A program made the position numbers and the translations under genes. A DNA stretch of 64,000 nt from Alphaproteobacteria bacterium (GTDB taxonomy: Bacteria; Pseudomonadota; Alphaproteobacteria; ATCC43930; CGMCC-115725): positions 124,001 to 188,000 of the forward strand of contig JAGWON010000003.1 in the NCBI GenBank assembly GCA_028871055.1, read 5' to 3'. Below, one piece after another: positions 31,796 to 55,418 of the stretch. Below the pieces are notes generated by a model. The model was not told the origin of the DNA. It saw nothing but the letters and a program-made list of their open reading frames with translations, and did not search any database. The first letter of the stretch is position 1; each line of letters starts with the position of its first letter.

Positions 31796-33205
31796 TCAAG
31801 CGAGGCGGACGTATTCGTAATCGGCCGGCAGCCGGTTGACGCCGCGTTCCGGTGGCGCGATCCAGCCAGCGACCTTGCCGGGCGCGGTGACCGGCCGCAT
31901 CAGGCTCCTGACGAAGGCCTTGTCGGATGCCGACGGCAGCCATTCGTCGCGCCGTGCCCGCCACTCGGATTCGCCGACGAACTGGCCCGCAGGATCGACC
32001 GGCCGATTGGCCCAAGCGCCGATGGTGCGGTGGAAGCGTGAGCTCGGCAGCCGAAGGCGGAAGGCAAAGCCAGCTTGCTCGATCATCCGGCTCCAGCGCT
32101 GTACGCCGTTGTCGCAGTCCTTGATATAGGCTTCGCGCGTGACCTCGTTCATCGCGTTGCGGAGCGCTACGCTTTCGGCGCCGGCGGGCGTCTCGACCGC
32201 GAGCACGGCGTTGCGACAGCTATGGTCCTCGAAGCGGCCTTCGTCCGGCCGGCCTTTGATGCCGTTGGCAAAGTAGGCCGCCGCGTTGGTCGACACCTCG
32301 GCGCCGAACAGGTCGAGCGACGAGCTGAACCAGAAATTCAAATAGCGCTGCAGCGTCGGCAGGTCGATGGCACCGGCGGCGCGCACCTTGTCGGGCGCAT
32401 CGGTCTTCAGCGCCTTCATCACCTCAAGCGTGCGCGCGACGACACGCGCGACGCCGTTGACGCCGACCATCATGTGATGCGCCTCCTCCATCAACATGAA
32501 GCGGCAGGTGCGCGCCAGCGGATCGAACCCGCTTTCGGCCAGGCTCATGAGCTGGAACTTGCCGTCGCGATCGGTGAAGTACGTGAACATGAAAAACGAC
32601 AGCCAGTCCTCGATCGGCTCGTTGAAGGTCGACAGGATGCGCGGCCGGTCGGCATCGCCGGAATGGCGCGCCAGCAGCGCCTCGGCCTCCTCGCGGCCGT
32701 CGCGGCCGAAATAGGCGTGCAACAGATAGACCATCGCCCAGAGATGGCGGCCTTCCTCGACGTTGACTTGGAACAGGCTCCTGAGGTCGTAGAGCGACGG
32801 CGCGGTGTGGCCGAGCAGGCGCTGCTGCTCGACCGAGGCGGGCTCCGTGTCGCCCTGCGTGACGATGAGGCGGCGCAGCGTGGTGCGGTGCTCGCCCGGC
32901 ACCTGCTGCCAGACTGGTTGGCCCATGACGTCGCCAAAGCCGATCTTGCGGTCGAGCTCGGGCTCGGCGAGGAAGATGCCCCAGCGATAATCGGGCATCT
33001 TGACCGCGCCCCAGCTCGCCCAGCCCTTGGCGTCGACCGAGGTGGCGGTGCGCAGATAGACCGCGGCGTCGAGAAAGTCGCTCGGCCCCATATCGCGCCA
33101 CCAATCGAGGAAGCGCGGCTGCCAATGCTCGAGCGCGCGCTGCAGCGTGGCGTTGCCCGCAAGGTCGACGTTGTTGGGGATGCGTTCCTGGTAATCGATC
33201 GCCAT
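31796..33205 (-). CDS. boxB: Benzoyl-CoA 2,3-epoxidase oxygenase subunit BoxB
   Basis: 'MAIDYQERIPNNVDLAGNATLQRALEHWQPRFLDWWRDMGP', 'EDWLSFFMFTYFTDRDGKFQLMSLAESGFDPLARTCRFMLMEEAHHMMVG' di-iron motifs. Confidence 0.92.
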   Translation of the reverse strand: MAIDYQERIPNNVDLAGNATLQRALEHWQPRFLDWWRDMGPSDFLDAAVYLRTATSVDAKGWASWGAVKMPDYRWGIFLAEPELDRKIGFGDVMGQPVWQQVPGEHRTTLRRLIVTQGDTEPASVEQQRLLGHTAPSLYDLRSLFQVNVEEGRHLWAMVYLLHAYFGRDGREEAEALLARHSGDADRPRILSTFNEPIEDWLSFFMFTYFTDRDGKFQLMSLAESGFDPLARTCRFMLMEEAHHMMVGVNGVARVVARTLEVMKALKTDAPDKVRAAGAIDLPTLQRYLNFWFSSSLDLFGAEVSTNAAAYFANGIKGRPDEGRFEDHSCRNAVLAVETPAGAESVALRNAMNEVTREAYIKDCDNGVQRWSRMIEQAGFAFRLRLPSSRFHRTIGAWANRPVDPAGQFVGESEWRARRDEWLPSASDKAFVRSLMRPVTAPGKVAGWIAPPERGVNRLPADYEYVRLA

Positions 33206-33219
33206 CGCCGATCCTATGC

Positions 33220-34893
33220 CTACACACGTTCCCAGTTGAAGCGCGGCCGCGCGCCGGTGCCGAAGCGCTTCAAGGCACCCTCGTCGCCGGTTGCGTTGGG
33301 CCGCGAGAACACCCAGTTCTGCCAAGCCGAGAGCCGGCCGAAGATGCGCGTCGCCATGGTCTCCGGTCCGGCGAAGCGCAGGTTGGCCTCGAGCGCGGTG
33401 AGCGCGTCGGGCGAAAGGCTGGCGCGCTCTTCGAGGACGAGGCGCAGCTCGTCGTCCCAGTCGAGCGCATCGGGCGTCGCCGTCACCAGCCCGAGCGCAG
33501 CCGCCTCGGTTGCCGCGAGGCTCGACCCGATATGCGCCTCCGCCGCCGCGACCGGCGCAGCCTCGCCGCAGAAGCGGGTGGCGAGCCGGCTCAGGCCGTT
33601 GACCATCGGCAGCAGGCCGAAATTCATCGCGCCGAGTGCGATGTGCGGCGGATCGTTGGCCTGACCGGCATCGAGCATGTACGACCGATCGGCGGCGAGC
33701 GCGATCTCAAGCAGCGAGCCGGCAAAGCAAGAGCCCTTGTCGATCACCGCAATCAGGCTCTTGGACGAGACGTCGAAACGCTGCAGCGTTCGCCGTAACA
33801 GGCCGAGCGTCTCGTGCGCCAGCCAGTGTCGGCGTTCGGCAAGCAACAGCGCGTCGCTCGCCAGCACCGTCTGCGCGTCGCCGCGCGTCTTCAGGAGCAG
33901 CGTGCCGAGCTCCGGCTCGTTGAGTCGCAGCGTGAGGATCGCGTCGTCGAGCTCGCGCGTCATCTGGATCGGCCACCATGCGGCGCCCTGCGCCGCGGCC
34001 TCGACGAGCGACGTCGGCGCCGTCGTTGGCGCCTTGACCGTCAGCGTCGCGGTGCGCGCCGCGCGATCGAAGACGACCTCGACGAAGGGATAGCGGTAGC
34101 CGTTCGTGCCGATCTCGCGTGCAAGCGGCGGCAGTTCGACCCCCTTGGCCTTATCCGGCCGATCGCTCGTCTGCGCCAGCGCCAGTGCGCGCTCCTTCAC
34201 CGCAGCGGAAAATTTTTGCGGCGGCGCCACCGCGTCGACCAGGCCCCACTGCCGCGCACGATCGGCGCGCACGCCTTCGGCGGTGGTACAGAACAGATCG
34301 GCGAGGTCGCGGCGCACCTTGCGCTTGTCGGTGAGCCGCGTCAGCCCGCCGGTTCCGGGCAGCACGCCGAGCAGCGGCACCTCGGGCAGACTGACGGTCG
34401 AGGACCGGTCGTCGATCATCAGTATCTCGTCGCAGGCGAGCGCCATCTCGTAGCCGCCGCCGGCGCAGGCGCCATTGATCGCGGCGAGGAACTTGAGGCC
34501 CTCGTGCCGGCTCGAATCCTCCATGCCGTTGCGCGTCTCGTTGGTGAACTTGCAGAAGTTCACCTTGAAAGCGTGCGACGACGTGCCGAGCATGTAGATG
34601 TTGGCGCCGGCGCTGAACATGCGGTCTTTGGCGCTGGTCAGCACGACGGTCTTGACCGTCGGATGCTCGAAGCGGATGCGGTTGAGCGCGTCCGCGAGCT
34701 CGATGTCGACGCCGAGATCGTAGGAGTTGAGCTTCAGCTTGTAGCCGGGCGCGAGGCCGCCGTCCTCGGCGACGTCGAGCGCGAGTGTGGCGATCGGGCC
34801 GTCGACCGACAGCCGCCAGTGGCGGTAGCGCTCGGGACTCGTGTCGAAGGTGATCATGTCCTGTCCGCGGGTGGTCATGGGGCTCCCGCGCAA
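33220..34893 (-). CDS. boxC: 2,3-epoxybenzoyl-CoA dihydrolase BoxC
   Basis: Crotonase-like repeats, 'AGANIYMLGTSSHAFKVNFCKFTNETRNGMEDSSRHEGLKFLAAINGACAGGGYEMALACDEILMIDDRSSTVSLPEVPLLGVLPGTGGLTRLTDKRKVRRDLAD'; adjacent to boxB. Confidence 0.92.
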   Translation of the reverse strand: MRGSPMTTRGQDMITFDTSPERYRHWRLSVDGPIATLALDVAEDGGLAPGYKLKLNSYDLGVDIELADALNRIRFEHPTVKTVVLTSAKDRMFSAGANIYMLGTSSHAFKVNFCKFTNETRNGMEDSSRHEGLKFLAAINGACAGGGYEMALACDEILMIDDRSSTVSLPEVPLLGVLPGTGGLTRLTDKRKVRRDLADLFCTTAEGVRADRARQWGLVDAVAPPQKFSAAVKERALALAQTSDRPDKAKGVELPPLAREIGTNGYRYPFVEVVFDRAARTATLTVKAPTTAPTSLVEAAAQGAAWWPIQMTRELDDAILTLRLNEPELGTLLLKTRGDAQTVLASDALLLAERRHWLAHETLGLLRRTLQRFDVSSKSLIAVIDKGSCFAGSLLEIALAADRSYMLDAGQANDPPHIALGAMNFGLLPMVNGLSRLATRFCGEAAPVAAAEAHIGSSLAATEAAALGLVTATPDALDWDDELRLVLEERASLSPDALTALEANLRFAGPETMATRIFGRLSAWQNWVFSRPNATGDEGALKRFGTGARPRFNWERV

Positions 34894-34909: not shown

Positions 34910-34943
34910 TAGAAATATAATTCATGTGTTTTAGCCGTCAAGC
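34910..34943 (-). promoter_or_regulatory. Predicted boxC promoter/operator (copy 1 of shared element)
   Basis: Minus strand reads GCTTGAC-N7-ACACATGAATTATATTTCTA; -35-like TTGAC and -10-like TATATT; 20-bp block identical to copy at 37754-37773. Confidence 0.65.
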
Positions 34944-34965
34944 AGTATGTTTCAACTTGCGGGAT

Positions 34966-35859
34966 TCAGCTCCGGATCAGCGAACGCAGTTCCCCGTAGC
35001 TCTGCTCGACCGTCTTGCCCGTGGTCGCGACCGTGGCGTCGGCCTTGCCATAGAGGGCGTTGCGGCCGTCGAGGATGCGGCGGAGATCGTCCATCGCCGC
35101 TTCGTTGTCGGCCATCGGGCGGTAATCGCCCTGGGCGATGACGCGGTTCATGTGCTCCTCGGGCACCGCACTGAGCCAGATCGTGTAACAGGCGGACAGC
35201 AACAGGTCGAAGGTTGCGGGCTCCGAGACGATGCTGCCGCCGGTGGCGATGACGGCGCGATCGTATTGTGCGATGACATTTTCCAGCGCGCGCCGTTCGT
35301 AGCGGCGGTAAGCCGCCTGGCCGTAGAGATCGAAAATCTCGCCAAGCCGAGTGCCGGATTCGCGCTCAATTTCCCGATCGAGCTCGACGAAAGGTACGCG
35401 TAGCTCTTTGGCCAGCTTCATGCCGAGTGTCGACTTGCCGGCGCCACGCAGGCCGATGAGCGCGATGCGATGCCGGCGTTCGTGCTCGGCCGCGGCACCG
35501 AAATTCTTGGTCAACAGATTGCGCGCCTGGGCGAAGTCCTTGGGCGACAGTCGCGCCAAGGTCTGGATGAGGAGCGTCAGCTCGACCGGCCGGTCGGGAC
35601 CGTCGCGCACCAGATCGGATACCGGCAAGCCCATGGCGCGCGCAATCTGACGCAACAGTACGATCGAGATGTTGCCCAAGCCGCTCTCGAGCTGCGCCAG
35701 ATAGCGCTCCGACACGCCGGAATCGCGCGCCAGAATCTTGCGCGTCATGCCACGCCGCGCGCGTGCCGCGCGGATCCGCTCGCCGAGGGTACGGAGATAT
35801 TCGCCTTCGCCGTCTTCGGCGCGGCGATGCTTCTTCGCGGTATCCGTCCTGGTGGCCAT
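34966..35859 (-). CDS. boxR: BzdR/BoxR-type regulator: XRE HTH fused to shikimate-kinase-like domain
   Basis: HTH 'LGERIRAARARRGMTRKILARDSGVSERYLAQLESGLGNISIVLLRQIARAMG' plus 'HRIALIGLRGAGKSTLGMKLAKELRVPFVELDREIERESG' P-loop. Confidence 0.88.
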   Translation of the reverse strand: MATRTDTAKKHRRAEDGEGEYLRTLGERIRAARARRGMTRKILARDSGVSERYLAQLESGLGNISIVLLRQIARAMGLPVSDLVRDGPDRPVELTLLIQTLARLSPKDFAQARNLLTKNFGAAAEHERRHRIALIGLRGAGKSTLGMKLAKELRVPFVELDREIERESGTRLGEIFDLYGQAAYRRYERRALENVIAQYDRAVIATGGSIVSEPATFDLLLSACYTIWLSAVPEEHMNRVIAQGDYRPMADNEAAMDDLRRILDGRNALYGKADATVATTGKTVEQSYGELRSLIRS

Positions 35860-35923
35860 CGTCGCGATCGGGTCTCAGCGCACAGCGCTCGTGAGATATG
35901 CATCATAATGCCCTGCGCCCTTC

Positions 35924-35938
35924 CACATGTACTATAAT
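35924..35938 (+). promoter_or_regulatory. Related promoter-like site between the regulator gene and the glycosyltransferase gene
   Basis: CACATGTACTATAAT matches CACATGAATTATATT of the two box promoters at 12/15 with the same CACATG-N3-TATAWT spacing. Confidence 0.35.
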
Positions 35939-36071
35939 GGTGAAGGCGGATAGCAACGGCCGCCGCAACGCCGCGCCGGATTCTGGGAAAGCCGCACGAA
36001 TCGTGCATACTCGCCCCCCCGGTCAAGGCACGAGGGGAATTTGGCTGCTGCATCGCGTGGTTGCGGGGGTC

Positions 36072-37226
36072 ATGGCTGACGCCATGCGCGTCCTTCACCT
36101 CTTTCCGCGATTCCGGCCCAACTTCGCCGGCGACGGGCTCTACTTCGAAAAGCTGTGGCCGCATCTGGTGGCCTGCGGCGGCAGCCACGACGTGCTGGTG
36201 TTTACCACGCCGGCGCCCACCGAAATCCTGCGCGTCGCACCGCCCCGGATGAATTTGATCTACCTGCGCCGCTTCGAGGCGGAATCGGTGCGTGCAGTGC
36301 TGCTGCGTTATTATCTTTGGCTGCTGCGCAACATCCGCCGCTATGACGTGATCCACGCGCGCACGCATATCGACCGCTTCTTCGTTTCGAATTGGATCGC
36401 CAAGCTCGCCGGCGTCGGCTTCGTCTATTCGGCGACGCTCGACGATTCGCCACCCTACATCCTGCGGACCTATCGCCCAAGCCTGTGGCGTTTCGTCACT
36501 TGGGCGATGCGCCGGACGATCACGCGGCTGGTTGTCCTCAACCGGCGGCTCTACGACGAGAGTGCGGCCTTCATGGGCGATCCCGGCCACGTCGTCATCG
36601 TGCCGCAAGGCGTGACGGTGCCGGAACGGACCGACGACGACGACGCCGAGCGGACGGCGCTCGGCATCCCGCACGACGCGATCGTGCAGCTCTATGTCGG
36701 CAGCATCTCGCGCCGCAAGGACGTGCTGTTCCTGATCGAGAACCTGGCCGCGCTCAACGCCGACGGCAAGAACCGGTACCTGGTCATGCTCGGCCCCGCG
36801 CTCGAGGCCGATTACCGCGTCGAGCTCGACGGTCCGATCGCCGCGCTCGGCATCGCCGACAAGCTGCGCTTCGTCGGTTATCGCGACGATCCGGCGCCGT
36901 TCTATCGCGCGGCCGACATCTTCGTCTTCGCCTCCTGGCTCGAGGGCTTCCCCAACGTGCTCGCCGAGGCGATGGCCCATGGTCTGCCCATCGTCGCGCG
37001 CCGGCTCGAGGGCGTGACCGATTTCGTCGTCGCGGACGGCGAGACCGGCCTGCTCTTCGACGCCGCCGGCGAGTATCGCGATCTCGTCAAGCGCGTCGAA
37101 ACGGACCACGCTCTGGCTGAACGCCTTGGCCGCAATGCGCGGGCCAAGGCGGCCGGCGACTATTCGATCGCGGCGGTCGCCAGGATCTATGATGCACTCT
37201 ACCGCTCGATGCTAACGACCGGTTAA
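36072..37226 (+). CDS. Glycosyltransferase (GT4-like)
   Basis: 'RVLHLFPRFRPNFAGDGLYFEKLWPHL', 'LYVGSISRRKDVLFLIENLA', 'FVFASWLEGFPNVLAEAMAHGLPIVAR...EGVTDFVVADGETGLLFD'. Confidence 0.82.
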   Translation: MADAMRVLHLFPRFRPNFAGDGLYFEKLWPHLVACGGSHDVLVFTTPAPTEILRVAPPRMNLIYLRRFEAESVRAVLLRYYLWLLRNIRRYDVIHARTHIDRFFVSNWIAKLAGVGFVYSATLDDSPPYILRTYRPSLWRFVTWAMRRTITRLVVLNRRLYDESAAFMGDPGHVVIVPQGVTVPERTDDDDAERTALGIPHDAIVQLYVGSISRRKDVLFLIENLAALNADGKNRYLVMLGPALEADYRVELDGPIAALGIADKLRFVGYRDDPAPFYRAADIFVFASWLEGFPNVLAEAMAHGLPIVARRLEGVTDFVVADGETGLLFDAAGEYRDLVKRVETDHALAERLGRNARAKAAGDYSIAAVARIYDALYRSMLTTG

Positions 37227-37249
37227 TTTCAGGCCGCCTACAGTCCGGG

Positions 37250-37711
37250 GTGGGTTCGGAGGTCCAGGAATACATCGACGTCGCCGCGCTGAAGAGCTCG
37301 GCGCTGCGCCGCCTGCACGCGGACTGGCAGAGTCGCCGTCGCGAGCGGAGCTTTCCTGCGCGCGCCGATTTCGACCCGCTCGAGATGAAATACATCCTCG
37401 GCAACCTATCGCTGGTCGAAGTGCGCCGGCATCCGCTGCGCTTCTTCTATCGCGTGCATGCGAGCAACATCGCCGCGCGCACCGGCTTCGACATGACCGG
37501 TAAATTCCTCGATCAGAATCCGGACGTCCAGCACCGCAATCTGATTTTCGATCATTACCTCCGCACGCTCGACGAGCGCCGGCCGATCGCGGCGCGGCGC
37601 GAGCGCACGTTCACCGACCGGGTGATGCTCGATTGCGAGGCCTTGGCATTGCCGCTGGCGCGCGACGGCGCGAACATCGACATGCTGCTGACGGGATTGG
37701 TCTGGAACTGA
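37250..37711 (+). CDS. PAS_5-like domain protein
   Basis: 'WQSRRRERSFPARADFDPLEMKYILGNLSLVEVRRHPLRFFYRVHASNIAARTGFDMTGKFLDQ' pattern of PAS_5; GTG start. Confidence 0.62.
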   Translation: MGSEVQEYIDVAALKSSALRRLHADWQSRRRERSFPARADFDPLEMKYILGNLSLVEVRRHPLRFFYRVHASNIAARTGFDMTGKFLDQNPDVQHRNLIFDHYLRTLDERRPIAARRERTFTDRVMLDCEALALPLARDGANIDMLLTGLVWN

Positions 37712-37739
37712 CCGGCGCCGACGGCTGCGGCAGTAAAAC

Positions 37740-37773
37740 GCTTGACTACCGAGACACATGAATTATATTTCTA
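37740..37773 (+). promoter_or_regulatory. Predicted benzoate-CoA ligase promoter/operator (copy 2 of shared element)
   Basis: GCTTGAC-taccgag-ACACATGAATTATATTTCTA; identical 20-bp block and spacing as boxC upstream copy. Confidence 0.65.
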
Positions 37774-37851
37774 CTTCGCGGAAAAGCCGCGCCGCAGGGG
37801 AGGATTGGCATAACCGCCGATGGGTCGGTCGCGCCGGCGCCGCAGATCGCG

Positions 37852-39393
37852 ATGCCGCGCGACTACAACGCCGCCGCCGATTTGATCGACCGCAATCTCG
37901 CTGCTGGCCGCGGCATCAAACTTGCCTTCATCGACGACCGCACCGATCTGACCTACGCCCAGCTCGCCGAACGTGTCGACCGCGCCGCCAACGCGTATCG
38001 CCGGCTTGGACTCCAGGCCGAACAACGCGTCATGCTGTGCCTGCTCGACACCGTGGACTTCCCCGTCGCGTTCCTCGGCGCGATCAAGGCGGGCATCGTG
38101 CCGGTGCCGGTCAACACGCTGCTTACGGCGAACGACTACGCGTTCATGCTGCGCGACAGCCGTGCCAAGGCGCTCGTCGTTTCGGACGCGCTCTACGACA
38201 AGATCGTGCCGGCGCTGGCGACGCAGCCGGCGCTCGAGCATGTGATCATCTCCGGCGCGGCGCCGGCGGGTCGCCTGTCCTTCACCGCTCTGCTTGCCGA
38301 ATCCGAACCCAAGGCGCGCACCGCTGCGACGACCTGCGACGACGTCTGCTTCTGGCTCTACTCGTCGGGCTCGACCGGCGCGCCCAAGGGCGCGGTGCAT
38401 CTCCAGTCGCACCTGATGCTCACCGCCGAGCTCTATGCCAAGCCGGTGCTGGGCATTCGCGAAAGCGACGTCGTCTTTTCCGCCGCCAAGCTGTTTTTCG
38501 CCTACGGACTCGGCAATGCGCTGACCTTTCCACTCGCCGTCGGCGCCACCAGCGTGCTGCTGGCGGAGCGCCCGACGCCCGCGGGGGTGGCGCGCATCCT
38601 CAAAGAGAAGAAACCGACCATCTTCTATGGCGTGCCAACGCTTTACGCCGCGCTGCTGGCGAGCGCGGAGCTGCCTGCGCGTGGCGACATCGCGCTCCGG
38701 TGCTGCGTCTCCGCCGGCGAGGCGCTGCCCGAGGACATCGGCAAGCGCTGGACCGAGCGGCTCGGCGTCGAGATCCTTGACGGCATCGGTTCGACCGAGA
38801 TGCTGCACATTTTCATTTCCAATCAGCCGGGGAAGGTCCGTTACGGAACGACGGGCGTACCGGTGCCGGGCTACGACATCCGCCTCGTCGACGACGATGG
38901 CAAGCCGGTGAAGGACGGCGAGATCGGCGAACTCCAAATTTCCGGGCCGACCAGCGCCGCCTATTACTGGAACAACCGCGCGAAAAGCCGTGATACCTTT
39001 CTCGGCGCCTGGACGCGCAGCGGCGACAAGTACAAGCGCGACGCGAAGGGCTATTACACGTATTGTGGCCGGACCGACGACATGCTCAAAGTCGGCGGCA
39101 TTTATGTCTCGCCGTTCGAGGTCGAAGCGGCACTGATGACCCACGCCGACGTGCTCGAAGCCGCGGTCGTCGGCCATGATGACGAGCAGAGACTGGTCAA
39201 GCCCAAGGCCTTCGTGGTGCTGAAGCCGGGTCACGACGGCTCGCCCGCGCTCGCCGAGGCGCTCCGGGCGCATGTCAAATCGCGCCTCGCGCCGTACAAG
39301 TATCCGCGCTGGATCGAGTTCGTCGGCGAGCTGCCGAAGACCGCGACGGGCAAGATCCAGCGTTTCAAGCTGCGAGAACGGGATCGTCGTTAA
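37852..39393 (+). CDS. Benzoate-CoA ligase family protein
   Basis: ANL motifs 'CFWLYSSGSTGAPKGAVH', 'DGIGSTEMLHIFISN', 'YYTYCGRTDDMLKVGGIYVSPFEVE', 'LPKTATGKIQRFKLRE'; box locus context. Confidence 0.88.
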   Translation: MPRDYNAAADLIDRNLAAGRGIKLAFIDDRTDLTYAQLAERVDRAANAYRRLGLQAEQRVMLCLLDTVDFPVAFLGAIKAGIVPVPVNTLLTANDYAFMLRDSRAKALVVSDALYDKIVPALATQPALEHVIISGAAPAGRLSFTALLAESEPKARTAATTCDDVCFWLYSSGSTGAPKGAVHLQSHLMLTAELYAKPVLGIRESDVVFSAAKLFFAYGLGNALTFPLAVGATSVLLAERPTPAGVARILKEKKPTIFYGVPTLYAALLASAELPARGDIALRCCVSAGEALPEDIGKRWTERLGVEILDGIGSTEMLHIFISNQPGKVRYGTTGVPVPGYDIRLVDDDGKPVKDGEIGELQISGPTSAAYYWNNRAKSRDTFLGAWTRSGDKYKRDAKGYYTYCGRTDDMLKVGGIYVSPFEVEAALMTHADVLEAAVVGHDDEQRLVKPKAFVVLKPGHDGSPALAEALRAHVKSRLAPYKYPRWIEFVGELPKTATGKIQRFKLRERDRR

Positions 39394-39459
39394 AACCGGG
39401 CCAGGGAAGCTTCTTGGCTCATCATAAACGTGAAACGAACATCACAGGGAGACGCGCCA

Positions 39460-40626
39460 ATGAAACGAATTCTTACGACGGTATTCGCTCTTTGCCTCAT
39501 GGCAGGGTCGGCAACCGCGGCCGAGACTGCCAAGATCGGCTTCATCACCACGCTGTCGGGACCGGCCGGCATCATCGGCAAGCACATGAAGGACGCGGCC
39601 AATCTCGCGCTCCAGGAGCTTCACGGCAAGATCGGTGGCCTTAACGCCCAGATCGTCTACGGCGACGACCAGTTCAAGCCTGATGTCGGCCGCCAAGTTG
39701 CCGAGGAGATGCTGAAGCGCGATAAAGTCAACTTCATCACCGGCGTCATCTGGTCGAACGTGCTGCTGGCGATCCGCCAGCCGGTGCTCAGCTCGGGCAC
39801 CATCCTGATCAGCGCGAATGCCGGACCGCACGAGCTGGCCGGATCGTTGTGCGCGCCGAACTTCTTCTCGACGTCGTGGCAGAACGACGAGACGCCCGAG
39901 GCCATGGGGCAATACATGACCGAGCACAAGATCACCGATGTCTATGTCATGGCGCCCAACTACGCGGCGGGCAAAGACATGGTGACCGGTTTCAAGCGAT
40001 ACTTCAAAGGGAAGATCGTTGCCGAGGTCTACACCAACGTGGGCCAGTCCGATTACCAGGCCGAAATCAGCAACATCCGCGCGGCGAAACCCAAGGCGGT
40101 TTTCGTGTTCCTGCCTGGTGGCATGGGCATCCAATTCATGAAGCAATACGCGCAATCGGGCCTGCGCGGACAGATTCCGGTTTACTCCGTCTTCAGCGCC
40201 GACGAGACGACGCTGCCGGCGATTGGCGACGCCGCCGCCGGCAATTCCGAGGCCGGCTTCTGGAACTACGATCTTGACAATCCAGCCAACAAGAAGTTCG
40301 TCAGCGAATTCCGCAAAGCGTACGGCTACATACCGTCGTACTATGCGGCGCAGAGCTACGACGCGATCAAGCTGATCGACAGCGCCGTCCGTGCGGTCCA
40401 CGGCAATCTCAAGAACACCAAAGGGATGATTGCCGCGATGGACAAGGCGAACTTCGCGTCGGTTCGCGGGCCGTTCAAGTACAATACCAACCACTTCCCG
40501 ATCGAGAACTTCTATCTGTTCAAGATCGTGAAGACCGCCGACGGCGTGTACGCGCGCAAGACGGAAGCCGTCGTCTTCCACGACCACAAGGACGCCTACT
40601 ACAACGAATGTCACATGACGAATTAG
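39460..40626 (+). CDS. Branched-chain-type ABC transporter substrate-binding protein (probable aromatic acid uptake)
   Basis: Signal peptide 'MKRILTTVFALCLMAGSATAAE', Peripla_BP_6 'KIGFITTLSGPAGIIGKHMKDAANLALQEL'. Confidence 0.86.
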   Translation: MKRILTTVFALCLMAGSATAAETAKIGFITTLSGPAGIIGKHMKDAANLALQELHGKIGGLNAQIVYGDDQFKPDVGRQVAEEMLKRDKVNFITGVIWSNVLLAIRQPVLSSGTILISANAGPHELAGSLCAPNFFSTSWQNDETPEAMGQYMTEHKITDVYVMAPNYAAGKDMVTGFKRYFKGKIVAEVYTNVGQSDYQAEISNIRAAKPKAVFVFLPGGMGIQFMKQYAQSGLRGQIPVYSVFSADETTLPAIGDAAAGNSEAGFWNYDLDNPANKKFVSEFRKAYGYIPSYYAAQSYDAIKLIDSAVRAVHGNLKNTKGMIAAMDKANFASVRGPFKYNTNHFPIENFYLFKIVKTADGVYARKTEAVVFHDHKDAYYNECHMTN

Positions 40627-40694
40627 CGGCGAAGGACGGCTTCCGTATTTTCGTGGGTTGGGGCTTCACCGGTCACAGGCGAGGCTGAGGCGCG

Positions 40695-41618
40695 GTGGAC
40701 CCCCTGCTCGTGCTGGCGCAGGCGCTGAACGGGATTCAGTTCGGCGTCATGTTGTTCCTGATGGCGGCGGGCCTGACGCTCGTGTTCGGCATCATGAACC
40801 TGATCAACCTCGCCCACGGCTCGTTCTACATGGTGGGTGCCTATGCCGCCGCGGCGACGTTCCAGGCGACGTCGTCGTTTCTGCTGGCGTTGCTCGCGGG
40901 AATCGGCGCGGGCGCGGCCGTCGGCATCCTGGTCGAGATCGTCGTCTTCCGGAGACTTTATCCGCGCGATCATCTCGATCAGGTGCTGGCCACCTTCGGT
41001 CTCATCCTTTTCTTCAACGAGATCGTGCGGATGATTTGGGGTCCGACCGCGCTCTACGCCACGGTGCCGCATTTCCTCGCCGGCCAGGTCGAGATTCTTC
41101 CGGGCGCGCCTTATCCGGCCTACCGCCTGGCGATCATCGCGGTCGGCCTCGGCGTTGCCGCGCTCCTCTATGCGCTCGTCAGCAAGACACGCATCGGCAT
41201 GATGATCCGCGCTGGCGCCTCGGACCGCGTCATGGTTAGCGCGCTCGGCGTCAACGTCAAAGTTCTCTATACGCTGGTCTTCGGCCTCGGCGCCGGACTT
41301 GCCGCGCTCGCCGGCCTCATGGCGGGGCCGATCTTCACCGTCGAATCCGGCATGGGCGAGAACGTTCTGATTCTCGCCTTCGTGGTCATCGTGATCGGCG
41401 GCATCGGCTCGATCCGCGGCGCGTTCGTGGCCTCCCTTCTCGTCGGCTTCGTCGACACCATGGGCCGGGCGTTCCTGCGGCCGCTGCTGGCGACCGTCAT
41501 GGCGAACACGGCGGCGGATAATGCGGGCCCGGCCCTCGCCTCGATGCTGATCTACCTGCTGATGGCGGCGGTACTCTTCTTCCGTCCGCGCGGGCTGTTT
41601 CCACCGCGGACACGCTGA
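40695..41618 (+). CDS. Branched-chain-type ABC transporter permease (LivH-like), GTG start
   Basis: 'LNGIQFGVMLFLMAAGLTLVFGIMNLINLAHGSFYMVGAYAAA'. Confidence 0.9.
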   Translation: MDPLLVLAQALNGIQFGVMLFLMAAGLTLVFGIMNLINLAHGSFYMVGAYAAAATFQATSSFLLALLAGIGAGAAVGILVEIVVFRRLYPRDHLDQVLATFGLILFFNEIVRMIWGPTALYATVPHFLAGQVEILPGAPYPAYRLAIIAVGLGVAALLYALVSKTRIGMMIRAGASDRVMVSALGVNVKVLYTLVFGLGAGLAALAGLMAGPIFTVESGMGENVLILAFVVIVIGGIGSIRGAFVASLLVGFVDTMGRAFLRPLLATVMANTAADNAGPALASMLIYLLMAAVLFFRPRGLFPPRTR

Positions 41619-42589
41619 TGATTATGCGGAAGCCCGGCGTCGTCTCCTCGCGTGCGCTCGTCACGTTGGTCATCATCGCGGTCCTGGCGCTCGTGCCGCC
41701 GGTGGCGGCGACGATCGGCGAGGGCTTCTACGTCGACGTCTTCACCCGCATCATGATCTTCGCCATCGCCGCTCTCAGCCTCGATATCATCCTCGGCTAC
41801 GGCGGCATGGTGAGTTTCGGCCACGCCGCGTATCTCGGCATCGGCGCCTACGCCGTCGGCATCCTCGCGTTCTACGGCGTCGACAACGGCTTTCTGCAAT
41901 TCGGGACGGCGATCCTGGCATCGGCGGTCGCGGCGCTCTTCATCGGCTTCGTGTCGCTGCGCACCAGCGGCATCTATTTCATCATGATCACGCTGGCCTT
42001 CGCCCAGATGATCTATTTCCTGAGCATCAGCCTCAACACCTATGGCGGCGACAACGGACTCAATATCGACCGCCCCAGCGACTTCGCCCGCCTCGTCAAC
42101 CTCTCCAACGCAACGACGCTCTACTATGTCGTTTTCGCGGTCCTGATGCTGTTCCTGTTTCTCGGCCAGCGCCTGGTCAATTCGCGCTTCGGCATGGTGA
42201 TCCGCGGCGCCAAGTCGAACGAGCGCCGGATGGCGGCGATCGGGTTTCCGTTGCTGCGCTACAAGCTCACCGCATTCGTCATCGCTGGCGCGATGTGCGG
42301 CGTCGCCGGCGCGCTGCTCGCCAACCAGGACCTCTTCGTCGCACCGGCCGTCATGCAATGGACGCGTTCGGGCGAGATCCTGATGATGGTGATCCTCGGC
42401 GGCATGGGCACGCTCGTCGGCCCGATCCTGGGAGCGGTCGCCTTCCTTGCGCTCGAGACCGTGCTGTCGGACCTGACCGGACACTGGCAGGCGATCATGG
42501 GACCGATCCTGGTTCTCGTCGTGCTGTTCGCGCGCGACGGCATCTTCGGCTTGCTGTCGCGCATCGGCGTCGAGCGCTCCCGTGGCTGA
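41618..42589 (+). CDS. Branched-chain-type ABC transporter permease (LivM-like)
   Basis: 'LDIILGYGGMVSFGHAAYLGIGAYAVGIL', 'ERRMAAIGFPLLRYKLTAFVIAGAMCGVAGAL'. Confidence 0.9.
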   Translation: MIMRKPGVVSSRALVTLVIIAVLALVPPVAATIGEGFYVDVFTRIMIFAIAALSLDIILGYGGMVSFGHAAYLGIGAYAVGILAFYGVDNGFLQFGTAILASAVAALFIGFVSLRTSGIYFIMITLAFAQMIYFLSISLNTYGGDNGLNIDRPSDFARLVNLSNATTLYYVVFAVLMLFLFLGQRLVNSRFGMVIRGAKSNERRMAAIGFPLLRYKLTAFVIAGAMCGVAGALLANQDLFVAPAVMQWTRSGEILMMVILGGMGTLVGPILGAVAFLALETVLSDLTGHWQAIMGPILVLVVLFARDGIFGLLSRIGVERSRG

Positions 42590-43337
42590 GCCGCTGCTGT
42601 CCGTCACCGGCCTCTGCCGGCATTTCGGCGGCGTTGTAGCGACCGACAACGTCTCGCTGACGATCGCCGAGGGCGAGCTTCACGCCATCATCGGTCCGAA
42701 CGGCGCCGGCAAGACGACGCTCGTCGCCCAGCTCATGGGGGAACTGCGCCCTCATCGCGGCACCATTCGGCTCGGCGACCGCGACGTGACGACGATGCCC
42801 TCGTACCGGCGTTCGCGCCGCGGGATCGCCCGCTCTTTCCAGATCACCAGCATCTTTCCGGAGTTCACGGCTCGCGACAACATCGCGCTCGCGGTTCAGG
42901 CCCACGCCGGACACAATTTTCGCTTCTGGCGCGCGGCGCGCACCGATCCCGCCCTGCGCAAGCCGGCCTGCGCCATCCTCGACAGCGTCGGCTTGGGCCA
43001 CCGTGCGGACGTCCCAGCCGCCACCCTCGCGCATGGCGAGCAGCGGCTGCTCGAGATCGCCATCGCGCTCGCCGCACGGCCGCGGCTTCTGCTGCTCGAC
43101 GAGCCGATGGCGGGCATGGCGCCCGAAGACGCGGCGCGTATGGTGCGCTTCCTGTCGCAGCTCAAGGGCAAGATCACCCTCCTGCTCATCGAGCACGACA
43201 TGGACGCGGTGTTCGCGCTCGCCGATCGCATTACCGTCATGGTCTACGGCAGCGTCATCGCCAGCGGAACGCCGGGGCAAATTCGCGCCAACGCCGAGGT
43301 GCGCAAGGCCTATCTCGGCGAAGACGAGCTCGCGTGA
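42582..43337 (+). CDS. Branched-chain-type ABC transporter ATPase (LivG-like), GTG start
   Basis: 'IIGPNGAGKTTLVAQLMG', 'LAHGEQRLLEIAIALAARPRLLLLDEPMAGMAPED'. Confidence 0.92.
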   Translation: MAEPLLSVTGLCRHFGGVVATDNVSLTIAEGELHAIIGPNGAGKTTLVAQLMGELRPHRGTIRLGDRDVTTMPSYRRSRRGIARSFQITSIFPEFTARDNIALAVQAHAGHNFRFWRAARTDPALRKPACAILDSVGLGHRADVPAATLAHGEQRLLEIAIALAARPRLLLLDEPMAGMAPEDAARMVRFLSQLKGKITLLLIEHDMDAVFALADRITVMVYGSVIASGTPGQIRANAEVRKAYLGEDELA

Positions 43338-44038
43338 TGCTCGCGGTATCGGGCCTCGAAGCCTGCTACGGCGAGAGTCAGGTCTTATTCGGCGTCGAAT
43401 TCACCGTCGACGCCGGCGAGATGGTGGCCCTCCTCGGCCGGAACGGGATGGGCAAGTCGACGACCGTTTCCGCGATCATGGGCATCGTGCCGCCGCGCCG
43501 CGGCACGATCGTCTTCGACAGCCAGCCGATCCATCAGCTGCCGTCCTACCGGATCGCCCAAGCCGGGCTCGGCCTCGTGCCGGAAGGACGACGAATCTTC
43601 CCCAACTTGAGCGTGCGCGAAAACCTCGTCGCCACCGCCGCCAATCGCGCCGCGCAGGCGGCGCCGTGGACCATCGACCGCGTCCTCGAGCTCTTTCCGT
43701 CGCTCGCTCGCGGCTTCGCCAGTCCCGGCAACCTGCTCTCGGGCGGCGAGCAGCAAATGCTGGCGATCGGGCGTGCGCTCATGACCAATCCGCGGTTGCT
43801 CATCCTCGACGAAGCGACCGAAGGCTTGGCGCCGCTGGTCCGAGCCGAAATCTGGCGTTCGCTGCAAAGCCTGAAGCGCGCCGGCCTGGCCATCCTGGTG
43901 ATCGACAAGAACGTCGATGCGCTGACCCGCGTCGCCGATCGCCACTACATTCTCGAAAAAGGCCGCATCGTCTGGTCCGGCAGCTCGGCGGCGCTCAAAG
44001 AAAATGTTGCGGTTCAGCATCGCTATCTGGGGGTGTGA
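43334..44038 (+). CDS. Branched-chain-type ABC transporter ATPase (LivF-like)
   Basis: 'LLGRNGMGKSTTVSAIMG', 'LLSGGEQQMLAIGRALMTNPRLLILDEATEGLAP'. Confidence 0.92.
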   Translation: MMLAVSGLEACYGESQVLFGVEFTVDAGEMVALLGRNGMGKSTTVSAIMGIVPPRRGTIVFDSQPIHQLPSYRIAQAGLGLVPEGRRIFPNLSVRENLVATAANRAAQAAPWTIDRVLELFPSLARGFASPGNLLSGGEQQMLAIGRALMTNPRLLILDEATEGLAPLVRAEIWRSLQSLKRAGLAILVIDKNVDALTRVADRHYILEKGRIVWSGSSAALKENVAVQHRYLGV

Positions 44039-52197: not shown

Positions 52198-52262
52198 ATT
52201 ATAAGTATTACTAAAGTATATTAATCATTATTATTTGTTAACTATTAACTAATACTTATAAT
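52198..52262. repeat. 13-bp perfect inverted repeat in extremely AT-rich intergenic region
   Basis: ATTATAAGTATTA (52198-52210) and TAATACTTATAAT (52250-52262). Confidence 0.7.
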
Positions 52263-52592: not shown

Positions 52593-52625
52593 GGACGGCT
52601 TCGCGTTGGAGCCGTCCTTTTTATT
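52593..52625 (+). terminator. Rho-independent terminator after PEP-CTERM gene
   Basis: GGACGGCT-tcgcgttgg-AGCCGTCC followed by TTTTTATTT. Confidence 0.75.
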
Positions 52626-53985
52626 TCGCCGTCGCCGACGCCCGCCAGACCGCCAGCACCCGGTTGACCACCGCCGTCGCCTCGCCTAGATAGCGCGCCG
52701 GATCGGTGAGGCGGGCGATCACCTTGGCATCGAGATGCGCGGCGATCTCGCTGTCGGCGGCGAGCGCCTCGGCAAGCGAGCGGCCGCGCACCAGTGCCGC
52801 ATGGCTGGCGCGCTCGACCAGCCGGTGCGCCTCGTCGCGTCCCGCCGTCTCGGCCAGCGCCATCATCACCGCTTCGGCCATGATCAGGCCGCGCGCCGCA
52901 CCGAGGTTGCGCTTCATCGCCGCCGCGTCGACGCGCAGGCCTTTGGCGACGTCACGCGCATGCATCAGCGCGCCCGAAGTCAGTACGAAGATCTGCGGCA
53001 GCGCGAGCGGCTCGCTCTGCCAAGCGCCGGTCGAGCGCTCGTGATCGCCGACAAGCGCCTGGAACATCAGCGGCACCAGCGCATGGACGCCGCGCGTGCA
53101 GGCGACGATATAGGCGCTCGCCACCGGATTGCGTTTCTGCGGCAGCGTGCTCGAGCCGCCGCGGCCTTCCGCCTGCGGCTCGGCGGCCTCGGCCACTTCG
53201 GTCTGGCTCAACAGGATGGTGTCGGTGGCGAATTTGGCGAGGCTGCCGCAGACGAGACCGAGCACCGCGGCGGTCTCGGCCATGGTCTCGCGATTGGCGT
53301 GCCACGGCGCGGACGGCGCCGCGAGGCCGAGCTCGCGCGCCAAGCCTTCGGTTACCGCGCGACCTTGGGCGCCGAGCGATGCCAGCGTGCCGACCGCGCC
53401 GCCGAATTGGACGACCAGCAGGCGGCGCCGCAATTCCGCCAGGCGTCGGCGATGCGCCGCCAGCGGCACCAGCCACACCGCGCATTTGTAGCCGAAGGTG
53501 ATCGGCAGCGCCTGCTGGAGATAGGTGCGGCCGGCCATGACGGTACGGCGATGGGCGCGCGCCTGCGCCGCCAGCGCGTCGCCGACGGCCTTCAGGTCGT
53601 CCTCGATCAGGTCGAGCGCTTCGCGCAGCTGCAACACCAGCGCGGTGTCGACGATGTCCTGGCTGGTCGCGCCCCAATGCACGTAGCGCGGTGCATCGCC
53701 GCCCGCCGCCGTGCCGAGCGCCCTGGCGACCGCCGCCGCCGGCACGCCGATAAGCGCGGTGCCCTTGGCGATCACGGGGAGCGAGAGGTTCTCCGCCTTG
53801 GCCGCCTTGGCGATCGCCGCCGCGGCGCTTTTGGGAATGATCCCGAGCCGCGCCTCGACCCGCGCCAGCGCCGCCTCGACGTCGAGCATCGCCTGCAGGC
53901 GGCGCTCATCCGAAAACAGCGCGCGCATTGCGTCGCTGCCGAAGAGCGCGCCGTAGATCGCCGAGTCCGCCGGATTGACCGCCAT
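52621..53985 (-). CDS. pcaB: 3-carboxy-cis,cis-muconate cycloisomerase
   Basis: 'GSSTLPQKRNPVASAYIVACTRGV' fumarase/aspartase signature; downstream of pcaHG. Confidence 0.92.
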   Translation of the reverse strand: MAVNPADSAIYGALFGSDAMRALFSDERRLQAMLDVEAALARVEARLGIIPKSAAAAIAKAAKAENLSLPVIAKGTALIGVPAAAVARALGTAAGGDAPRYVHWGATSQDIVDTALVLQLREALDLIEDDLKAVGDALAAQARAHRRTVMAGRTYLQQALPITFGYKCAVWLVPLAAHRRRLAELRRRLLVVQFGGAVGTLASLGAQGRAVTEGLARELGLAAPSAPWHANRETMAETAAVLGLVCGSLAKFATDTILLSQTEVAEAAEPQAEGRGGSSTLPQKRNPVASAYIVACTRGVHALVPLMFQALVGDHERSTGAWQSEPLALPQIFVLTSGALMHARDVAKGLRVDAAAMKRNLGAARGLIMAEAVMMALAETAGRDEAHRLVERASHAALVRGRSLAEALAADSEIAAHLDAKVIARLTDPARYLGEATAVVNRVLAVWRASATAK

Positions 53986-54025
53986 TCCCCCTCGAAGCGC
54001 GGCTCTAGACCACCTTGCTCGACGG

Positions 54026-54613
54026 TCAGAAATCGAAGAAGACCGTCTCGCCCTTGCCTTGCAGCACGATGTCGAAGTGCCACACCGCGGCGCCGTTGGC
54101 CTTGCCCTTGGACTCGGCGACGAGCGTCTTCTGCAGCGCCGGATCGTCGATCGACGACAAGACCGGGTCGCTCGGGTTGAGGCTGTCGCCGGCGAAATAG
54201 ACCCGGGTGAAGAGATGATGCAGCAGGCCGCGCGCCGCGATCGACACCGCGATGTGCGGCGCCTGCAGCGTGTTGCCGCGGCCGGGCACCGCCCCCGGCT
54301 TGACCGTGGTGAAGCGGTAAATGCCGTCCTTGTCGGTGCAGGAGCGGCCGAAGCCGCGAAAATGCGGATCGAGCGGCTTGTCCTGGACGTCGTCCGGATG
54401 CTCGTACTTGCCCGCGGCGTTGGCCTGCCAGATCTCGACGATCGCATCGGGCAGTGGCGTGCCGTCGCCATCGATGACGCGGCCCTCGAGCACGATCTTG
54501 TCGCCCTTGGCCTTGCCGGCATCGGTCAGGTCGGCCCATTCCGGCCGCGTGAGGCCGATATGGAGATAGGGGCCGGCGGTCTGTGTTCCGGTCGGGATCA
54601 GCTTGGCGCTCAT
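54026..54613 (-). CDS. pcaG: Protocatechuate 3,4-dioxygenase alpha subunit
   Basis: 'TQTAGPYLHIGL', 'VIDGDGTPLPDAIVEIWQANAAGKYEHP', 'HLFTRVYFAGD'. Confidence 0.93.
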   Translation of the reverse strand: MSAKLIPTGTQTAGPYLHIGLTRPEWADLTDAGKAKGDKIVLEGRVIDGDGTPLPDAIVEIWQANAAGKYEHPDDVQDKPLDPHFRGFGRSCTDKDGIYRFTTVKPGAVPGRGNTLQAPHIAVSIAARGLLHHLFTRVYFAGDSLNPSDPVLSSIDDPALQKTLVAESKGKANGAAVWHFDIVLQGKGETVFFDF

Positions 54614-54627
54614 GGTCGCGTCCCCGC

Positions 54628-55332
54628 TCACAGCCCGGCCGGCGTGGCGTGGCGCCCGCGCAACACGACGTCGAAGCGATAGCCCAGGGCCCATTCGGCT
54701 TCGCTCAGGTTTGGATCGTAGCGCGAGATCAGCCGCTTGCGCGCGGCCTCGTCCGGCACGCTGTTGTAGATCGGATCGAATTCGAGCAGCGGATCGCCCG
54801 GAAAGTACATCTGGGTGATGATCCGCGTGGCGAAGGCCGGCCCGAACACCGAGAAGTGGACGTGCTGCGCGCGCCACGCGTTGAAGGTGTTGCGCCACGG
54901 ATAGGCGCCCGGAATGATCGATAGGAAGCGGTACTCGCCCTTGGCGTTGGTGACCATCTGACCGCGGCCGGTGAAATTCGGATCGAGCGGCGCGGCATGC
55001 TGGTCGTTGGGATGGCAATAGCGGCCGGCCGCGTTCGCCTGCCAGATTTCGACCAGCGTATTCGGCACCGGACGGCCGTCCTCGTCGAGGACGCGACCGG
55101 CCAGAATCATGCGCTCGCCGAGCGGCTCGCCCTTGTGCTGCTTGGTCAGATCGACGAGGTCGGGTCCCGCCCAGCCGCTGGTGAAGGTCGGGCCGGTGAT
55201 TTCGGTCAGCGTCTGCCGGAGCGCAACCGGCTCCCGCTGGGGATGGCGCTTGATCGTGCTGGTATAGGCCGGCCAGTCGTTCGACGGCTGGCTGCCAGTG
55301 CGTTCGGCGTTGTATTCGCGAATTTCCGTCAT
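54628..55332 (-). CDS. pcaH: Protocatechuate 3,4-dioxygenase beta subunit
   Basis: 'GRVLDEDGRPVPNTLVEIWQANAAGRYCHPNDQHAAPLDPNFTGRGQ', 'HVHFSVFGPAFATRIITQMYFPGDP'. Confidence 0.94.
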   Translation of the reverse strand: MTEIREYNAERTGSQPSNDWPAYTSTIKRHPQREPVALRQTLTEITGPTFTSGWAGPDLVDLTKQHKGEPLGERMILAGRVLDEDGRPVPNTLVEIWQANAAGRYCHPNDQHAAPLDPNFTGRGQMVTNAKGEYRFLSIIPGAYPWRNTFNAWRAQHVHFSVFGPAFATRIITQMYFPGDPLLEFDPIYNSVPDEAARKRLISRYDPNLSEAEWALGYRFDVVLRGRHATPAGL

Positions 55333-55418
55333 GCGTGCGATCTCCTCCCGGCGCTATCCCGCTACGGCCTCGATCGCAAGCCGCCGGCAATTTTGACGCA
55401 TGGCGATCGCCCCGTATT

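Follow-up and report, generated by a model that had tools for sequence, protein, structure and literature searches.

Regulators of the BoxR/BzdR family bind palindromes of the ATGCACTATAGTGCAT type, usually several per promoter and mainly three to five helical turns apart (PMC6449761). In related systems BoxR/BzdR acts as a repressor and is released from the DNA by benzoyl-CoA (PMC4424350; PMC6678401). Here we analyzed a stretch of 64,000 nucleotides from an alphaproteobacterial genome (hereafter the window), in which a boxR gene is located between boxC and bclA, i.e., beside the box genes as in the BoxR/BzdR family (Table 1). The BoxR product matched HTH_3 at its N-terminus (6e-11) and SKI at its C-terminus (8.7e-38), and scored 422 bits against NF006015 (cut-off 204). 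On the evidence described below, we consider it highly likely that one type of repressor-controlled promoter is used twice in this cluster, once for boxCB and once for bclA together with the transporter genes, with BoxR acting on two operators, O1 and O2.

Table 1. Predicted operators and annotated genes of the box cluster (positions in the window).
Feature	Coordinates	Strand	Description
O1 of boxC	34910..34925	-	BoxR-type palindrome ATGAATTATATTTCTA; contains -10 TATATT (34919-34914)
O2 of boxC	34940..34955	-	TTGAAACATACTGCTT; starts 30 bp upstream of O1; aligns with the O2 of relatives' boxC
O1 of bclA	37758..37773	+	ATGAATTATATTTCTA, identical to O1 of boxC; contains -10 TATATT (37764-37769)
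O2 of bclA	37728..37743	+	Weak, CGGCAGTAAAACGCTT; 9/14 consensus positions
Near-canonical BoxR site	35898..35913		ATGCATCATAATGCCC, upstream of boxR; rank 3 in the window (generic PWM)
Second BoxR-like site	35927..35942		ATGTACTATAATGGTG, upstream of boxR; rank 4 in the window (generic PWM), within shuffle range
boxR	34966..35859	-	XRE helix-turn-helix + shikimate-kinase-like regulator
boxC, 2,3-epoxybenzoyl-CoA dihydrolase	33220..34878	-	TIGR03222, 898 bits
boxB, benzoyl-CoA 2,3-epoxidase subunit	31796..33325	-	TIGR03225, 744 bits
bclA, benzoate-CoA ligase	37852..39393	+	TIGR02262, 835 bits
ABC transporter genes (binding protein, two permeases, two ATPases)	39430..44038	+	

The sequence GCTTGAC-N7-ACACATGAATTATATTTCTA was found at 34943-34910 on the minus strand and at 37740-37773 on the plus strand, exactly where and as a first-pass annotation of this DNA had reported it, with all 27 of the 27 fixed bases identical. 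The 7-nt spacers (GGCTAAA and TACCGAG) mismatch at 5 of 7 positions, which is the chance level, and the flanks of both sites show no obvious similarity beyond chance; a large recent duplication was ruled out on these grounds. No match of this kind arose in 100 dinucleotide shuffles. The genome-wide motif scan that the first-pass annotation had called for recovered the 20-mer at the two known places only; with up to 3 mismatches allowed, the whole 3.07-Mb genome holds no third copy, and 38 other genomes of the family all lack the 20-mer.

By inspection, TTGAC(G/T) and TATATT are 16 bp apart at both sites, in support of the earlier proposal of promoter-like sites upstream of boxC and of the benzoate-CoA ligase gene. 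Within the 20-mer we recognized a near-perfect 12-bp palindrome, GAATTATATTTC, with 10 of 12 positions symmetric, and a partner palindrome, previously overlooked, starts 30 bp upstream of each site. Both partners end in the GCTT of GCTTGAC. The idea of a BoxR-type site over the -10 was upheld in that the 20-mer fits a predicted BoxR operator, and had to be amended in that GCTTGAC is not merely a -35 element, as its GCTT closes the second palindrome. Very probably, the 20-mer is a BoxR operator-promoter. The last TT of the boxC O2 forms the start of the -35 TTGACG (34941-34936); the O2 of bclA runs into the -35 TTGACT (37742-37747), and GCTTGAC is conserved at the bclA genes of relatives. Whole-helical-turn spacing, characteristic of BoxR operators, was found in all three promoters, with 30 bp at boxC and bclA and 29 bp between the two sites upstream of boxR. 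Both O1 copies keep the TATA core and the layout of the consensus (10/14 positions), with half-sites TGAA and TTCT, not TGCA.

Some features of the genes themselves were also noted. The boxB open reading frame overlaps boxC at its start, and its true start is probably later. The true start of bclA may be upstream of 37852, at 37810: the window has ATA at 37810-37812 where bclA of two genomes of the same genus (G002 and G003) has its start ATG, a good ribosome-binding stretch precedes this position, and the first in-frame ATG of the window is at 37852. The ABC transporter genes probably belong to the bclA operon, co-transcription being suggested by tight spacing on the same strand. In the window's genome (G000) no boxA scored above the family cut-off (best 79.8 bits vs 459) despite the presence of boxB and boxC, and another protein may serve as the reductase partner of BoxB. 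Translations of the open reading frames at 52621-55390 look, on reading, like protocatechuate-pathway genes (pcaB-like and protocatechuate dioxygenase-like).

A generic palindrome position weight matrix (PWM), trained on other genera without the window's genome and without the nearest genus, g7, placed its top four matches in the 64 kb at 37758, 34910, 35898 and 35927, all of them in box promoters. The two O1 copies came joint first with 19.6 bits each, above the best of 30 shuffles (16.9 bits). The site at 35898 scored 16.5 bits, just under that best shuffle, and the one at 35927 scored 12.9 bits, less than the mean shuffle maximum of 13.9 bits, so that its rank is notable and its score is not. 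A PWM of O1 alone built without g7 amounted to only about one effective sequence, and no conclusion was drawn from it. The composite model R1, constructed from 17 promoters of relatives with the window's genome left out, had only two matches in the whole genome, the top one at the boxC copy (E 0.0025) and a weak one at the boxR site (E 4.6); within the window, its first three matches were the boxC, bclA and boxR promoters. Across the family, R1 matches at E<0.01 were present in 12 of 16 BoxR+ genomes and in 0 of 23 BoxR- genomes, and considering only BoxR+ genomes outside the training set, in 4 of 8 vs 0 of 23 (p=0.002). A degenerate BoxR pattern gave six matches in the genome, two of which are the known sites, and its reversed control gave two. 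None of the four extra matches, on C28, C6, C14 and C23, was claimed as a further target, given the two matches of the reversed control; the one on C28 is at the start of an open reading frame that by reading resembles an mlaC-type gene, with no box gene adjoining. A composite match at 52214-52259 was likewise discarded as weak, being located in an AT-rich gap and having a score within the shuffle range.

More than 50 BoxR loci were collected, and sites were scored in the upstream regions of boxR, boxC and bclA. In many relatives, the boxC promoter carries an O2 of the form xTGCAnnATAnTGCTT, or close to it, and an O1, ATGCATTATAATGC, that starts 30 bp downstream. The boxC promoter of the window is in register with them, with TTGAAACATACTGCTT as O2, GAC completing the -35, and ATGAATTATATTTCTA as O1 over the -10, and the ligase promoter follows the same arrangement, its O2 (CGGCAGTAAAACGCTT) being weak. 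Because the window promoters align with this O2/O1 layout, the two conserved blocks correspond to the end of O2 with the -35 and to O1 with the -10, and between the operators lie the free 7 nt. Site pairs in relatives peak at 30 bp, with 28 pairs (score of at least 10) vs 0.2 pairs of any spacing per shuffle, many of the 28 being related to one another or counted twice, once from each flank of an intergenic region that two genes share. In a thinned set of 59 pairs, peaks were observed at 30-31, 39-41 and 49-52 bp, and helical phasing was significant. Of 8 occurrences of CTTGAC joined to a BoxR site, where shuffles predict 0.04, six belong to the window's family and the other two to loci of genomes from outside its class.

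In the mechanism that we propose, one BoxR dimer would bind the palindrome O1 and cover the -10, and a second dimer would occupy O2, 30 bp or about three helical turns upstream, with its end overlapping the -35. Lying on one face of the DNA, both dimers would cooperate to exclude RNA polymerase, blocking the -10 and -35 of both operons. Once benzoate is converted by the ligase into benzoyl-CoA, BoxR would be released, and ring-opening enzymes, ligase and uptake would rise together. Moreover, boxR would probably repress itself through the sites at 35898-35942. The match of the site layout with the published BoxR/BzdR palindrome (PMC6449761) supports this reading. Points that count against it are the divergence of O1 from the consensus (10/14), the weak O2 of bclA (9/14), and the 19.9 bits that R1 gives the boxC copy, less than the 27-40 bits of relatives.

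The genus of the window, with members that have and others that have not boxR, offers a natural comparison that separates operator bases from bare promoter bases. G002 and G003 have kept boxC (83-86% identity) and bclA (83-85%), and no boxR was found in them, only shikimate-kinase-like matches, G002 being only 85% complete; the loci concerned are L161 (G003) and L164 and L168 (G002). Their bclA promoters retain GCTTGAC and the ribosome-binding stretch and lack the 20-mer. Because GCTTGAC persists without BoxR while the 20-mer does not, the 20-mer appears tied to BoxR, although the lack of boxR in both genomes is probably one shared loss event, which lessens the weight of this comparison. In both genomes boxC abuts the region upstream of a glycosyltransferase gene, and the G002 contig ends shortly beyond. 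In the window, this gene and a PAS_5 gene interrupt the box cluster between boxR and bclA (35898-37226), and they are retained in the same-genus species. Upstream of the glycosyltransferase gene, CTTGACCGG...GCGAGTATGCAC (35990-36030, minus strand) is conserved in G001, G002 and G003; it looks like a minus-strand promoter, and in G002 and G003 it now stands before boxC. G001 is without boxC and also without a close bclA.

As for the origin of the identical 20-mers, the first-pass annotation had concluded from the unlike spacers that selection, and not a recent duplication, was responsible. This argument is weak because the GCTTGAC at bclA is ancestral (present in G002, G003, g7 and G005), the 20-mer at this place is missing from the nearest relatives and thus new to the lineage, and the identity extends beyond the constraint on the operator; in addition, an unlike spacer may simply fall outside a copied tract. 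We consider that there is an even chance that a recent short-tract templated event copied the 20-bp O1/-10 block from the boxC to the bclA promoter, where it was kept as a good BoxR-controlled -10. The O1 of boxC is old and at its ancestral place, whereas at bclA, among the window's lineage, G002, G003, g7 and G005, O1 occurs only in the window's lineage despite the GCTTGAC in the others. Genus g9 has an O1 at the bclA promoter too, but it is common to the divergent boxR promoter. Positions that vary in relatives, namely ACAC and the final two bases of the 20-mer, are identical in the two copies, and independent draws from the relatives' column frequencies, which represent few effective sequences (8.65), would yield agreement over the 20-mer with a probability of ~6e-5 and over all 27 bases of ~1e-6. 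Such a long operator common to boxC and bclA was seen in no other of 34 genomes; the next longest shared stretch, one of 18 bp in L119, resembles a ribosome-binding/start stretch. Against copying, it would be unusual in itself that a tract of ~20 bp landed at the right distance from a -35, no donor-recipient junction is visible, and the low number of effective sequences weakens the chance estimate.

The alternative, that selection for BoxR binding and -10 function shaped both promoters without any copying, is a serious candidate that we nevertheless hold to be rather less than even. It is favored by the chance-level similarity of flanks and spacer, by the core O1 columns, strongly conserved in all relatives, and by intermediates at the boxC of g7. 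It leaves the identity of the non-conserved ACAC and last two bases unaccounted for, and the boxR sites of the same genome have stayed near-canonical, which argues against a genome-wide pull to this version of O1. Taken together, short-tract copying and parallel selection are about equally likely. The fuller scenario, in which the operator/-10 cassette was copied from boxC to bclA in one lineage, placing the ligase under BoxR control at the -10, and sister species lost the repressor, falls a little short of an even chance; if true, it would represent a recent rewiring of a regulon by short-tract copying, and the identical 20-mers may record the spread of an operator from one promoter to another.

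It is very improbable that another regulator, encoded outside the cluster, binds the 20-mer by a different code with a TGAA...TTC core, even though the two O1 copies show the same departures from TGCA (C to A on the left, G to T on the right). Intermediates, ATGAATTATATTGCCG and ATGCATTATAGTTCTA, exist at the same place in g7; ATGAATTATAATTCTA, identical to O1 at 15 of 16 bases, is found between boxR and bclA in L121-L123; BoxR has kept its recognition helix; and no 20-mer occurs where boxR is missing. An altered DNA code of BoxR itself was also considered for the TGAA/TTC common to both O1 copies, and was ruled out by the unchanged recognition helix and the near-canonical boxR sites. Since this helix, VSERYLAQLESGLGN, is conserved with close relatives that have canonical TGCA sites, the best reading of the TGAA/TTCT half-sites is a drift towards weaker sites that would also serve well as a -10, rather than a new code. 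Equally hard to credit is a strong promoter without an operator, in which the 16-bp spacing of TTGAC and TATATT would reflect -35/-10 needs only, given that the 20-mer is nowhere else in the genome, that conserved columns track the BoxR palindrome rather than the bare hexamers, and that G002 and G003 have GCTTGAC at bclA without the 20-mer.

Under the preferred reading of BoxR on O1 and O2, the locus carries the BoxR operator code into a lineage of Alphaproteobacteria, and the conservation of exactly two blocks is accounted for, with one operator on the -10 and one on the -35. It resembles the betaproteobacterial BoxR/BzdR systems (PMC6449761) in the palindrome with a central TATA, in the presence of several sites at whole helical turns, and in the divergent box cluster with a ligase and an ABC transporter, and it differs from them in its TGAA/TTCT half-sites. 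The pair of the window is spaced by 30 bp, whereas many betaproteobacterial pairs and pairs from large alphaproteobacterial genomes in the collected loci are spaced by 49-52 bp. Among the latter genomes, the boxR/bclA promoters of L121-L123 carry ATGAATTATAATTCTA as O1, yet with the partner site 52 bp away and with near-canonical boxC sites (TGCACTATTGTGCA). Compared on BoxR-type operators alone, the PN promoter of the bzd operon of Azoarcus sp. CIB (PMC6678401) has the same XRE/shikimate-kinase-type repressor across a sigma-70-type promoter, additional upstream operators, and benzoyl-CoA as inducer, as we infer for the window. In PN, OR1 covers -32 to +31, OR2 and OR3 are further upstream, and there is a site for the activator AcpR, whereas the window has a compact O2(-35)/O1(-10) pair. 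Repressor-type control itself is already known from such systems, and what may distinguish this locus is the possible copying of one switch from the other.
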